Shown here: in pieces, positions 9,245 to 43,070 of the stretch | How the letters are laid out: each line of letters begins with the position of its first letter | Position numbering within the stretch: the stretch's first letter is position 1 | Assembly (NCBI RefSeq): GCF_023698535.1 | Contig: NZ_JALJCL010000010.1 | Span: 62,001 to 126,000, forward strand | Direction: 5' to 3' | Length of the DNA stretch: 64,000 nt | Origin: Halorientalis regularis | GTDB lineage: Archaea; Halobacteriota; Halobacteria; Halobacteriales; Haloarculaceae | Notes under the pieces: generated by a model | The model's input: only the letters and a program-made list of their open reading frames with translations | What the model was told of the DNA's origin: nothing | The model's database searches: none | Made by a program: the position numbers and the translations under genes

Positions 9245-10417
9245 ATGAGTGAACACGACGACACCGACGAGGCGTTCGGTGGTTTCGGCGGCCGACACGT
9301 CCCCGAACCCATGCAGGAACCGCTCGCGCGGCTCGCGGCCGCGTTCGAGGACATCGCACAGACCGAGGAGTTCGAGGCGGAGTTCCGGTCGATTCTCGAA
9401 TCCTACGCCGGTCGGCCGACCCCGCTGTACCACGCCGAGCGCCTCTCCGAGGCGTACGGCGCGGAGATCTACCTCAAACGCGAAGACCTGCTCCACGGCG
9501 GTGCCCACAAGATCAACAACGCCATCGGGCAGGCGTTGCTCGCCGAGAAGGCCGGCAAGGAGCGACTGATCGCCGAGACGGGCGCGGGCCAGCACGGCAC
9601 CGCGACCGCGATGGTCGGCGCGCTATTCGACCTTGACACCGAGATCTACATGGGCAAAAAGGACGTGGAGCGCCAGCGGATGAACGTCTTCCGGATGCGG
9701 CTGATGGGCGCGCAGGTCAACCCCGTCACGCAGGGCGGTGCGGGGCTGGCCGACGCGGTCGACGTGGCCCTGGAGGACTTCACGGAGAACATCGACGACA
9801 CCCACTACATGGTGGGGTCGGTCGTCGGTCCCGACCCGTTCCCGCGGATGGTCCGTGCGTTCCAGTCGGTCATCGGAAAAGAGGCCCGCGAGCAGGCCAT
9901 CGACCAGATCGGCGGACTCCCCGACGCGTGCGTGGCCTGCGTCGGCGGCGGCTCGAACGCCATCGGCCTCTTCCACCCGTTCCGGGACGACGACGTGGCC
10001 TTCTACGGCGGCGAGGGCGGCGGCGAAGGCGCGGGCTCGGGTCGCCACGCCGCGCCACTGGACGACGGGAAAGAGGACGTGCTCCACGGGATGCGTACGA
10101 GAGTCATCGACGACGACGTGGAGGTCCACTCCGTCTCGGCGGGGCTGGACTACCCCGGTGTCGGCCCGGAACACGCTCGCTTCCGCGAACTGGGCCGCGC
10201 CGAGTACCGCGCCATCACCGACGACGAGGCTCTGGAGGCGTTCCGGACGCTCTCGATGACCGAGGGGATCATCCCGGCGCTGGAGACGGCTCACGGGCTG
10301 GCGATGGCCAAGAAGGTAGCCGGGGAGACAGACCACGAGACCATCGTCGTCAACCTCTCGGGCCGGGGCGACAAGGACATGGAGACCGCGGCCGAGCAGT
10401 TCGATCTCGGGGAGTAA
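9245..10417 (+). CDS. trpB: tryptophan synthase beta chain, unlinked to other trp genes
   Basis: 390 residues. PLP enzyme that joins indole and serine to make tryptophan. The PLP lysine is K89 in [11 protein letters not shown]; the phosphate loop [10 protein letters not shown] and the family block [13 protein letters not shown] are intact, so it should be active. It is of the TrpB1 type by these motifs. ATG at 9245 gives [16 protein letters not shown]; a GTG start 27 bases upstream would overlap the divergent gene's start region. No trpA or trpC flanks it, although haloarchaea usually have trpCBA together, so this may be a second, stand-alone copy acting on free indole. Confidence 0.95.
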
Positions 10418-38779: not shown

Positions 38780-39478
38780 GTGGACGTGACCTACCGAGAC
38801 CGGGCCGCCCTGCTCGGCGACGTCTTGGTCTGTGCCGACCTCCACGTCGGGAAGGCCGCCGCGGCGAACGTCTCGCTCCCCCTCGGCGAGCGCGACCACC
38901 TCGTCGACCGCGTGGCCGCCCTCTGTGACCGATACGACCCCGAAACTGTCGTGTTCGCCGGCGACCTGCTCCACTCGTTCGACCGCGTGGCGAGCGCCGC
39001 CGAGGAGACCGTCACCGCGCTGGAGACGACGGTGCGGGACGCGGGCGCGACGCCGCTGGTCACGCCGGGCAACCACGACGCGATGCTCGACGTTGTCTGG
39101 TCCGGCCCGACCGCCCACGAGTTCGAGGTCGAGACCGACGAGGGGCGGGCCGTCGTCTGTCACGGGCACCTCGAACCCGAGACCGAGGCGGACCTGTACG
39201 TCGTCGGCCACGACCACCCCACCATCACCATCGAGGGGCGGAAGTGGCACTGCTATCTCTACGGCCACGGAGTCTACGAGGGAGCGGACCTGCTCGTCCT
39301 CCCCGCTTTCTCCCACCTGATCGAGGGGGTCTCGATCAACCGGCGGTACGGCGGCACCGCCACGACGAACTCGCCGTTGATCGGCGATCTGGACCAGTGC
39401 CGACCCATCGTCTGGGACGACGAGAGCGAGGAAATCCGGGAGTTCCCGCCCCTCGGCGAGTTTCGCGACCTACTCTAG
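38780..39478 (+). CDS. metallophosphoesterase
   Basis: 232 residues, GTG start at 38780 (another GTG two codons on). The five metal-binding blocks are visible: CADLHVGKA, FAGDLLHSF, PGNHDAM, CHGHLEP and VGHDHPT. Archaeal members of this calcineurin-like family are often linked to DNA repair helicases; here there is no such neighbour. Cytosolic. Its stop overlaps the end of the convergent FAD enzyme by 9 bases. Confidence 0.92.
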   Translation: MDVTYRDRAALLGDVLVCADLHVGKAAAANVSLPLGERDHLVDRVAALCDRYDPETVVFAGDLLHSFDRVASAAEETVTALETTVRDAGATPLVTPGNHDAMLDVVWSGPTAHEFEVETDEGRAVVCHGHLEPETEADLYVVGHDHPTITIEGRKWHCYLYGHGVYEGADLLVLPAFSHLIEGVSINRRYGGTATTNSPLIGDLDQCRPIVWDDESEEIREFPPLGEFRDLL

Positions 39479-40723
39479 TTTCCGGGCGGCGACCCGCCCG
39501 CTCTCCAGTGCACCCTGAATCGCGGACCAGCGGGTGTAGTCGCCCGCGAGGACGACTGGTCCGTCGGGCGCGTCGACCGCGGGGAGGTCGGCGCGAAAGC
39601 CCGGCGGCTGGACGAATTGGGCCACGTCGATCCGGTCGGTCCGGAGGAGTTCGAGGGCGTCGAACTGACGTTCGGGATACCACTGGCCCAGAACCGCACG
39701 GCCGCGGGACTGAAGTTCCGCGTCGCTCTCGTCACGCTCGCCCAGCCACGTCGCGCTCACCAGCGTCCGGTCGTCGGGCGCGTACTCCGAGGCGACCGCC
39801 GAGAGGGGTGCGATCTGGTTGGGTTCCGCGTCGCGGGCGTTCAGGACGATCTTCTTGCCGGTCTCCAGTTCGACGTGCCCGGGAAGGCCGTAGTACTGGG
39901 TGACACAGCCGCTGGTTTCGGTCGGGACAGCCACGTCCGTCAACTCGGCCACAGTCGGCGGGTCCGTCGCGACGACCGCGCCGTCGGCGCTGATGGTCTC
40001 CCCGTCGGTCCCGACGGTGACGCCGCCGTCGCTGGCGTCGAGGCTCTTGACTGCGGTCCCGAGTTCGATCTCCGCACCGGCCGCGCGGGCGCGGTCGGCC
40101 AGGTACTCGCTGATCGCCCCCATCCCCTCGGCGGGGATCGCGGTCTTCCCCTCGGACAGCATCTTGAACGTGTAGCGGAACACACCGGCGTCGGTCGACA
40201 GCGAGCGGTCGAGCGTGATTCCGCCGTAGAAGGGTGCGGCGAAGTTCTCGACGAATTTCTCCGAGAATCCCCGGGCGTGCAGGTAGTCCCGCACGTCCTG
40301 ACGTTCGTCGGGATCGAACAGCGTCCCGATGTCGGCCGCCTTCATGTCCCGCTGGAGTTTGAACAGCCGGAGCTTGTCGCCCAGCGTCACGTCGGTGTTG
40401 AACAGCGTGTCCGAGAGGTCGCTCGGACTACTCAGGGGGTCGGCCAGCACGGACCGGCGACCGGGGTTGGCGATGGTCGCACCGGCCGAGAAGTAGCGCA
40501 GATCGAGGGCGTCGTAGTCCAGTTCCCGCCTGGCCGCGGGGTAGGCGGTAAAGAGGACCTGAAAACCGCGGTCGAAGACGAATCCGTCCTCGCGGGTCGA
40601 GCGGACGCGGCCGCCCACTTCGTCGCGCCGTTCCAGCACCGTCACGTCCCTGCCCGCGTCGGCGAGGTGGCGGGCCGCGACCAGCCCGGCCAGCCCGCCG
40701 CCGACGACCACGGCGTCTGTCAT
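39470..40723 (-). CDS. FAD-dependent amine oxidase/phytoene desaturase-like enzyme
   Basis: 417 residues. Dinucleotide-binding motif VVVGGGLAGLVAARHLADAG, then VTVLERRDEVGGRVRS at about 29-44, both family hallmarks, and the closing flavin contact VVLAGDYTRWSAIQGALESG. It belongs to the flavin amine oxidase / protoporphyrinogen oxidase / carotenoid desaturase group. Substrate unclear; in a pigmented haloarchaeon a carotenoid or porphyrin-like substrate is possible. No clear operon partner. Confidence 0.9.
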   Translation of the reverse strand: MTDAVVVGGGLAGLVAARHLADAGRDVTVLERRDEVGGRVRSTREDGFVFDRGFQVLFTAYPAARRELDYDALDLRYFSAGATIANPGRRSVLADPLSSPSDLSDTLFNTDVTLGDKLRLFKLQRDMKAADIGTLFDPDERQDVRDYLHARGFSEKFVENFAAPFYGGITLDRSLSTDAGVFRYTFKMLSEGKTAIPAEGMGAISEYLADRARAAGAEIELGTAVKSLDASDGGVTVGTDGETISADGAVVATDPPTVAELTDVAVPTETSGCVTQYYGLPGHVELETGKKIVLNARDAEPNQIAPLSAVASEYAPDDRTLVSATWLGERDESDAELQSRGRAVLGQWYPERQFDALELLRTDRIDVAQFVQPPGFRADLPAVDAPDGPVVLAGDYTRWSAIQGALESGRVAARKLE

Positions 40724-40812
40724 ACCCGGGCGAAGGAGTGGCGACCACTAAAAGCCCGCGCGGTCGGTCGCGAGGGCAACGGTTATCCAGACTACGTGAC
40801 AAGTCCGGACCG

Positions 40813-41127
40813 ATGTGCCCCGAGACATCCTCCAGTTCGGGCGGTGGTGCGACCAGGTCACCGCTCGCATCGAACGCCGCGTTCGGTGCGATCCTGGCAC
40901 TCGCCATGCTGGCGGTGCTGTACAGCCTCCTCATCGTGCAGCAACCGCTCCTCGGTGCGCTCGTCGCCTCGTGGGTGATCGGTCTCTACGTCGTCTGGCG
41001 GTTCGTCAGGTGGTTCACGTACGCCTACGAGCGCCGGACCGCGGCGATGGAGTCCATGGCCGACTCGATGGACCGGATGGCCGACGACGGGACGGGCCCC
41101 ACGTTCGGCGACGACGAGACGCGCTAA
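40813..41127 (+). CDS. small two-span membrane protein
   Basis: 104 residues from ATG at 40813. Ser/Gly-rich N-terminus, a hydrophobic region (about 24-62) long enough for two spans, then a helix with repeated Met (AMESMADSMDRMADD), possibly amphipathic or coiled, and an acidic tail. No function recognised. Such proteins are common in haloarchaea. Confidence 0.65.
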   Translation: MCPETSSSSGGGATRSPLASNAAFGAILALAMLAVLYSLLIVQQPLLGALVASWVIGLYVVWRFVRWFTYAYERRTAAMESMADSMDRMADDGTGPTFGDDETR

Positions 41128-41180: not shown

Positions 41181-42371
41181 ATGACCCGCAATTCGGCCGT
41201 TCGGGACCTCACCTGCCGAGCGTGTGGCGATTCGTTCGACCCCGCGGAGACGACCGGCCCGTGTCCGTCGTGTGACGGCCACTTGACCGTCACCTACGAC
41301 CTCGACGCGGTCGATTTCACCCCCGAGACCGCCACCGACCGCCGGTACGAGGGGATCGCCCGTTACGCCGAGTTGCTCCCCTTCACCGCCGAGACGCTCG
41401 TGACGCTGGACGAGGGCGCGACACCGCTCGTCGCCTGCCCCGACCTGGCCGAGGAGTGGGGCGTCGGCGCGGTCTACATCAAGGACGAGGGGCGCAACCC
41501 GACGGGCAGCGTCGCGGACCGCGGGATGGCCGTCGCGGTGACCGCGGCCGCCGAGGTCGGCGCCGAGGACGTGGCCCTGCCCACGACGGGCATCGAAGGG
41601 CAAGCCGCGGCCGCCTACGCCGCCCGCGCCGGACTGGACTCGCATTCGTTCGTCCCCTCGCGGGCGACCTTCGACGCCAAGGCGATGATCAACGTCCACG
41701 GCGGCGACATGGAGGTCGTCGGCGGCCGCTACGGCGACGCCGTCGATTCGTTCCGCGAGACCGTCGCCGAGGAGGGCTGGCACTCGCTTTCCCCCTTCGG
41801 GACACCCTACCGCCGGGAGGGCCAGAAGACGCTGGCCTACGAACTCGCCGAGCAACTCGACTGGACGGCTCCGGACGCGGTGGTCTACCCGACCGGCGAG
41901 GGCGTCGGTCTCGTCGGCGCACACGCCGGCGCGCAGGAGCTTGCGGACCTCGGTCTCGTCGACAGCACCCCCGCGATGTACGCCGCACAGGCCGACGGCT
42001 GTGCGCCCGTCGTCGAGGCGTTCGAGAACGGCGCGGACGACACCGAAGTCTGGGAGACGCCGGACACGATCTGTGGCGGCATCGAAATTCCCGATCCGGC
42101 CGGTGGGGCCGACGTGCTCACGGCCATCCGAGAGAGCGACGGCGGCGCGGTCGCCACCGAGGACCGCGACGCCCTCGAAGGCGCGGTCAGCATCGCCCAG
42201 TCCGAGGGCGTGGAGATCGGTGCCTCGGCGGGCGTCGCGGCCAGCGGCGCGGCGGCACTGGCCGACGAGGGAGAATTCGGCTCCGACGACACCGTCGTGC
42301 TGGTCAACACGCTCCCGGGCAACGCCGAGGCGGACATCCTCCGGAACCACCTGGTGAGCAAGGGCATCTGA
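41181..42371 (+). CDS. threonine synthase-like protein lacking the PLP lysine
   Basis: 396 residues. N-terminal zinc-finger-like part (CRACGDSFD, CPSC), then the fold-type II PLP core. In threonine synthases the lysine that binds PLP lies in a block of the form GS/TFKDRG; here residues 109-115 read GSVADRG, so the position is A112 (GCG at 41514). The PLP-contacting Asn of the SGN block is also changed (TTGIEGQ, I138). Other regions (KDEGRNPTG, AAAYAARAG, VVLVNTLPGNAEAD) follow the family. It is very unlikely to make threonine; a binding or regulatory role, or different chemistry, is inferred. The LysE exporter follows after 3 bases. Confidence 0.88.
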   Translation: MTRNSAVRDLTCRACGDSFDPAETTGPCPSCDGHLTVTYDLDAVDFTPETATDRRYEGIARYAELLPFTAETLVTLDEGATPLVACPDLAEEWGVGAVYIKDEGRNPTGSVADRGMAVAVTAAAEVGAEDVALPTTGIEGQAAAAYAARAGLDSHSFVPSRATFDAKAMINVHGGDMEVVGGRYGDAVDSFRETVAEEGWHSLSPFGTPYRREGQKTLAYELAEQLDWTAPDAVVYPTGEGVGLVGAHAGAQELADLGLVDSTPAMYAAQADGCAPVVEAFENGADDTEVWETPDTICGGIEIPDPAGGADVLTAIRESDGGAVATEDRDALEGAVSIAQSEGVEIGASAGVAASGAAALADEGEFGSDDTVVLVNTLPGNAEADILRNHLVSKGI

Positions 42372-42374
42372 GGC

Positions 42375-43070
42375 ATGGCAGCCAGTCCCGTCGCGTCGCT
42401 CGGTGCCGGCGTCCTGTTCGGCCTGGCGCTGGCGGCACCGCCCGGGCCGATGAACGCCGTCATCGCCGAGGAGAGCGTCCTCCGTGGCTGGCTGGCGGGT
42501 TTCACCGCCGGCCTCGGTGCGATGACCGCCGACGCCTGCTTCTTCGCGCTCGCGCTGGCCGGCGTCGTCACGGTCGTCCAGAACGCCCCCACCCTGCGAG
42601 CGGCGATGATCCTCGCCGGTGGCGGCCTGATGCTGTACTTCGCGGTCGGGGCCGCGACGAGCGCACAGGCGGCCCTGAGCGTCGACTCGAGGACCGAGAC
42701 GACCGACGGCGGAATGGGTCGCGGGTTCCGGAAGGCGTTCGTGCTGGCGCTGACCAACCCCTACCAGATCGCGTTCTGGCTGACCGTCGGCGTGGGCCTG
42801 CTCGAACCCGGCACCGTGGACATCCTCGAAAAGACGCCCTACATCGGCGCGGAACTGGCGGGGCTGGTCGTCGTCCGGACCGGAAGCCCGCTCCTGCTCG
42901 CGGGACTGTTCGGCGGCATCGTCTGCTGGATCGTCGGCTTCCCGGCAGCGCTACGCGCGGCTGGGCGACGGGTCGACCGACTCACGCCGCTGGTCGCCGG
43001 CGGGAGCGCGGTGGTGCTGGCCGGGTTCGGCCTCCTCTTCGTGGCCGACGGCCTCGGCGCGCTCCTCTAG
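42375..43070 (+). CDS. LysE/RhtB-family amino acid exporter
   Basis: 231 residues with six membrane segments. Family motif GLALAAPPGPMNAVIAEESV near the N-terminus and ALTNPYQIAFWLTVG in the middle. LysE-type proteins export amino acids such as lysine, arginine, homoserine or threonine using the proton gradient. It follows the threonine-synthase-like gene by 3 bases, so the two are surely in one operon, which suggests amino-acid export or sensing. Substrate unknown. Confidence 0.9.
   Translation: MAASPVASLGAGVLFGLALAAPPGPMNAVIAEESVLRGWLAGFTAGLGAMTADACFFALALAGVVTVVQNAPTLRAAMILAGGGLMLYFAVGAATSAQAALSVDSRTETTDGGMGRGFRKAFVLALTNPYQIAFWLTVGVGLLEPGTVDILEKTPYIGAELAGLVVVRTGSPLLLAGLFGGIVCWIVGFPAALRAAGRRVDRLTPLVAGGSAVVLAGFGLLFVADGLGALL

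Follow-up and report, generated by a model that had tools for sequence, protein, structure and literature searches.

What is a threonine-synthase-like protein for once the lysine that should hold its cofactor is gone? The locus raising this question lies in a 64,000-nucleotide stretch of Halorientalis regularis DNA, the whole of which we call the window. There, a 396-aa open reading frame on the forward strand (41,181–42,371) is spanned over its whole catalytic region by Pfam PALP (PF00291, E 4e-61), and the NCBIfam model NF006050, 'threonine synthase', scores it at 340 bits, above the curated cut-off of 303. Its AlphaFold2 model, computed from an 89-sequence alignment, reaches a pLDDT of 96.5. 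The top structural neighbour is the Arabidopsis thaliana threonine synthase 2c2b (VIA Z 50.2, 390 residues aligned, the N-terminal part among them), a plant structure in complex with S-adenosylmethionine, a ligand that belongs to the plant entry. Bacterial threonine synthases follow with Z 43–49, and the neighbour list also holds ligand-bound Lys-to-Thr mutants of TrpB (2tys, βK87T). The N-terminal zinc-ribbon-like segment (41,214–41,273, forward strand) contains both cysteine pairs, C12/C15 and C28/C31, and superposes in the model on the N-terminal part of the plant enzyme; zinc binding is putative, and the four cysteines are retained in 88–96% of Lys-less orthologues. The closest matches, at 93–94%, are from H. 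pallida and H. persicus within the genus.

With known threonine synthases (EC 4.2.3.1; 2c2b, Thermus thermophilus 1v7c/1uim, Mycobacterium tuberculosis 2d1f; NF006050/PRK08197) the protein shares the full fold including the N-terminal extension, the motif context NPTGSxxDRG, and a P-Y-R-x-E-G segment with R211. By sequence and model it is a full-length threonine-synthase-like member of the PLP family whose fold and N-terminal cysteine motif are kept, much as a sequence-only reading of this DNA had described it. Since NF006050 accepts the Lys-less protein above its cut-off, automated annotation would misname it as a threonine synthase, which flags a systematic misannotation.

The difference lies in the cofactor site. 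Codon 112 (41,514–41,516, forward strand) is GCG and places alanine at the position of the Schiff-base lysine, with NPTGSVADRG replacing the GSFKDRG context of threonine synthases; in phmmer alignments A112 stands opposite the lysine in five threonine synthases, four of them bacterial and the fifth from Arabidopsis. Codon 138 (41,592–41,594, forward strand), ATC, encodes isoleucine within TTGIEGQ, facing the asparagine of bacterial threonine synthases that binds the PLP O3′ and that is present in 48/48 Lys-containing orthologues. Both substitutions had been claimed from the sequence, and translation and alignments bear them out. Beyond these we find a third loss, at codon 240 (41,898–41,900, forward strand), where GAG puts glutamate in place of a glycine of the PLP-phosphate loop (PTGEGVG versus PTGGGVG in Lys-containing orthologues). 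In the T. thermophilus enzyme, PLP is contacted by Lys61, Asn87, residues 187–191 and Thr317; counting along the alignment matches the first two with A112 and I138. PLP-contact identities throughout combine these contacts with the alignments. The counterpart of Thr317, T377, is kept in the Halorientalis protein and is mostly proline in its Lys-less relatives.

A Schiff-base lysine relocated elsewhere in the chain would have been at odds with the sequence-only reading, and none was found along it. The only remaining lysines are K101, K167, K216 and K394, and because the same positions are usually lysine in Lys-containing orthologues as well, none of the four is new and a replacement can be ruled out. 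With the Schiff-base lysine and the SGN-loop asparagine absent and the Gly/Asn-rich phosphate loop broken, the protein, judged by these residues, is unable to form the internal aldimine characteristic of the threonine synthase mechanism, and its normal hold on PLP appears lost. A sequencing error or alignment slip has a negligible chance of explaining this: none of the eight Halorientalis genomes has the lysine, nor do H. persicus, H. pallida and a MAG drawn from a separate collection, although some of these three may duplicate species among the eight. Independent genomes agree on the change, and further PLP contacts are lost with it.

Mapping position 112 across homologues shows that the loss reaches far beyond one protein. 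The lysine is absent in 8/8 Halorientalis genomes (Ala in five, Thr in two, Arg in one) and in 81 of the 132 unique haloarchaeal orthologue sequences sampled, a count that is no unbiased rate, as sampling favoured diversity within Haloarculaceae. The 132 are the 144 tree sequences minus six bacterial and six divergent haloarchaeal ones; across the 144, the 81 replacements are A (43), T (16), V (11), L (3), G (3), R (2), D, F and E. Homologues occur in 179/195 genomes of the order (E cut-off 1e-80) and in 139/146 of the family (E cut-off 1e-60), and matches in the listed genomes are free of internal stops; one complete family genome, G010, has no match at E≤1e-60. Two side observations concern the distribution. 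Lys-less Haloarcula-like sequences (g3, L151–L164) mostly read SLADRK or SLGDRK, with a lysine three residues past the lost one, possibly a local replacement in that group only; the Halorientalis protein has no such lysine. In addition, a divergent Lys-containing clade (PTNTFKDRG; L169, L177, L193, L197, L200) coexists with the Lys-less gene in several family genomes. In the literature searched we found no report of lysine-less threonine synthases, of this haloarchaeal family or of recurrent loss among orthologues, an absence that is weak evidence.

The lysine was lost in place, because Lys-containing and Lys-less genes occupy one chromosomal neighbourhood. Lys-containing loci (e.g. L222, L223) and Lys-less ones share the order aIF2α, PAC2, DnaJ-like, phosphoesterase, amine oxidoreductase on the opposite strand, the gene itself, LysE and HD, the first four labels being what we take these genes to be from our own reading of their sequences. 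Trees were computed with the motif columns (three stretches) removed from the alignment. A 144-row maximum-likelihood tree requires six state changes at the lysine position, and a careful 65-row tree requires five in every bootstrap tree, forced by supported branches. A single origin of the loss was rejected, as enforcing one Lys-less clade costs a ΔlnL of 359 (p-AU 8e-44). A Dollo count, which assumes that the lysine is never regained, gives 13 losses; the cautious estimate is a minimum of five state changes. The trees indicate that the same lysine is repeatedly lost among haloarchaeal orthologues, and treating the H. regularis gene as a single odd protein, as had been done, was too narrow a framing for a recurrent change at the level of the order.

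Individual losses can be placed in the tree. Lys-less L235 (f7) adjoins Lys-containing L237, Lys-less L225 and L138 (g68) adjoin Lys-containing L133, and a third, separate loss is that of the large Haloarculaceae clade, inside which L148 has the lysine and all other PLP motifs intact. In L225 and L138 the lysine is the sole loss among eight PLP positions, whereas in 67/81 Lys-less sequences no more than four of the eight remain. Also within the large Haloarculaceae clade, L175, L179 and L180 (g69) keep the lysine (GTVKDRG) and have no glycine phosphate loop (YPLDGTAG and similar); going by these sequences, the pocket can erode ahead of the lysine.

Selection has nevertheless kept the protein. 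By the Nei–Gojobori method dN/dS is 0.13–0.18 for the Halorientalis gene and 0.10 for the L225/L138 pair, in which the rest of the pocket is kept, compared with 0.03–0.16 for Lys-containing orthologues and 0.06–0.08 for the canonical threonine synthase, ThrC. Lys-less values are about 1.5–2 times those of the two comparison sets; purifying selection is weaker but clear. Across 81 divergent Lys-less proteins, 26 positions are conserved at 99–100%, among them E103, T108, D113, R114, G137, R161, K167, H173, R211, Q270, D328, D385 and R388. PLP contacts are retained far less in Lys-less proteins (mean 0.42) than the 102 remaining positions at which Lys-containing orthologues never vary (0.79; p=0.0015, a guide only, as related sequences are not independent). 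Part of this contrast is built in because position 112 defines the Lys-less group; it is carried by other contacts as well, with retention of 0.11 at G240, 0.19 at V242 and 0.32 at T377. Catalytic residue gone and purifying selection kept, with invariant positions, is what marks a pseudoenzyme, and we consider it very probable that the gene product is a PLP-free pseudoenzyme maintained by selection. The suggestion that a degenerate enzyme has been reused stands on this ground, since the fold is retained under purifying selection. The best sign that the needed function is independent of catalysis comes from the pair in which the lysine alone was lost and purifying selection persists.

Threonine synthesis need not rely on this gene. 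All 96 good Haloarculaceae genomes carry a canonical ThrC, 78–98% conserved across the family (own-genome copy G000:C41:94366–95487), whose Halorientalis copies keep GSFKDRG, STGNTSA and PVGNAGN. Canonical ThrC is a paralogue of the Lys-less protein, about 36–39% identical to it, but far better conserved. The Lys-less gene as sole threonine synthase was rejected in view of this universal presence. In Haloferax volcanii, an insertion mutant of thrC3 (HVO_2969) requires Thr/Ser/Gly (PMC4300041); HVO_2969 may be of the canonical type or a Lys-containing orthologue, and H. volcanii itself gave a match in the control-genome search, which records presence only, without positions.

The sequence-only reading had looked for the reason for reuse in the adjacent exporter. 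The LysE-type amino-acid exporter gene (42,375–43,070, forward strand; PF01810, E 1e-22) begins with its ATG at 42,375, and the pseudoenzyme stop ends at 42,371; the 3-nt spacing reported earlier is correct, synteny agrees, and the two genes are probably co-transcribed in Halorientalis. The Lys-less protein could then be a sensing or regulatory subunit of LysE that binds threonine or homoserine and controls export, and the same-strand pair is indeed conserved in all sampled Halorientalis loci. However, LysE lies within 700 bp downstream in 17/69 Lys-less and 4/28 Lys-containing loci (Fisher p=0.41). Because it is not significantly commoner beside Lys-less than beside Lys-containing genes, the pairing holds for the genus and is not specific to lysine loss, and a sensor of this kind is not specifically supported. 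Most Lys-less loci, including all of the Haloarcula-like group, have no LysE nearby, in Lys-containing haloarchaea it often sits 0.7–3 kb off, and tight spacing is commonplace in compact archaeal genomes. LysE is part of an older conserved neighbourhood, and we regard the sensor explanation as decidedly unlikely; a LysE partnership confined to Halorientalis is possible and would leave the wider pattern unexplained. The steadiest neighbour of Lys-less genes is instead the flavin amine-oxidoreductase gene (39,470–40,723, reverse strand; PF01593), divergent upstream in 57/69 Lys-less versus 10/28 Lys-containing loci, with several of the sampled Lys-containing copies located elsewhere in the genome.

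Other explanations dispense with the exporter. The gene might be decaying towards a pseudogene, no longer needed once its function was lost, as its faster evolution relative to Lys-containing orthologues and the missing match in G010 would allow; the lack of internal stops, a dN/dS of 0.10–0.31 and the 26 nearly invariant positions make this very improbable. It might instead encode a new PLP-independent enzyme with the old cofactor site rebuilt, for example around a histidine replacing Gly240 (GHG). His240 occurs in 63% of Lys-less orthologues, and Pro377 and T136 in most, but in Halorientalis itself E240 and T377 predominate. The phosphate-loop replacements differ by Lys-less lineage (H, E, S, D, Q or R), and no new residue of the old pocket is invariant across Lys-less proteins, so that a new enzyme is unlikely; with erosion that differs by lineage, a single ligand conserved in the former cofactor site is also hard to reconcile. 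Non-covalent binding of PLP or of a preformed PLP–amino-acid aldimine, which the protein would act on or sense, has a model in the Lys-to-Thr tryptophan synthase mutants among the structural neighbours, and would suit L225 and L138 with their otherwise complete pocket. The Halorientalis protein, however, has also lost the PLP asparagine and carries a glutamate in the phosphate loop, and the pocket is reduced in most Lys-less sequences, which leaves little likelihood for this explanation.

A PLP-free pseudoenzyme with a second, non-catalytic role therefore remains the reading that we develop. That the lysine was lost several times while the gene was kept in place suggests a second job needing no catalysis. 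By its sequence, the protein descends in place from a Lys-containing threonine-synthase-like enzyme and has lost the Schiff-base lysine and other PLP contacts. This ancestor may already have had a non-catalytic role, in binding or as a partner, and catalysis could presumably be dropped, with that role retained, because canonical ThrC covers threonine synthesis. Residues still in place, R211 for one, may let the two-domain clamp bind a small metabolite that is amino-acid-like or phosphorylated, and a partner protein would most likely respond to the ligand-bound conformation. Candidates for this partner are canonical ThrC and the amine oxidoreductase, joined in Halorientalis by LysE. R211 is kept in nearly all Lys-less proteins, which is suggestive only for ligand binding, and it could be structural instead. 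Metabolite-gated partner binding, which draws on the clamp fold, R211 and the precedent of CYSL-1, is offered tentatively, as a working mode about which we are more doubtful than confident. For the whole proposal, a PLP-free pseudoenzyme recurrently created, with a pre-existing non-catalytic role and a CYSL-1-like working mode, we see an even balance. That repeated independent conversion at a conserved place exposes a hidden ancestral function, that of a metabolite-gated protein partner and archaeal counterpart of CYSL-1, seems to us a plausible idea that falls somewhat short of an even chance. Given the higher dN/dS and the genome without a match, this role may be a small one, or one that cells can do without.

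Accounts of lost catalytic residues usually describe a single loss, following duplication. Here, orthologues at one place are caught at different stages: some lack the lysine alone, some lack most of the pocket, and in others the pocket eroded ahead of the lysine. This natural gradation lends itself to the questions of how an enzyme turns into a non-enzyme and which second function keeps its gene. The cysteine-desulfurase lineage of M. tuberculosis Rv3778c is of fold type I. Inactive PLP-enzyme relatives are already known as a kind: Rv3778c, a natural relative without the PLP lysine, was judged likely non-catalytic, although it belongs to this unrelated lineage and the part of that source drawn on here describes one gene and no family-wide history (PMC12910592). 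CYSL-1 of Caenorhabditis elegans, a fold-type II CysK homologue, no longer has biosynthetic activity but still binds its ligand and its partner, acting with EGL-9 in an H2S-responsive way (PMC5562914). Like the Halorientalis protein it is a retained inactive relative of fold-type II PLP enzymes, with the ligand-and-partner mode only proposed in our case. It differs in belonging to the cysteine synthase clade and in having a known partner and ligand, where those in Halorientalis are candidates only, whereas the Lys-less threonine-synthase relative shows recurrent loss across an archaeal order.

Two further features of the window were observed. Between the amine-oxidoreductase and pseudoenzyme genes lies a small open reading frame (40,738–41,127, forward strand), probably membrane-associated and without a Pfam match, which is only 50–73% identical in close relatives, where the adjoining genes are about 87–98% identical. 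At 9,416–9,985 (G000:C1:71416–71985), a weak match to the threonine synthase model falls inside a 401-aa open frame, which is likely another PALP-family gene.
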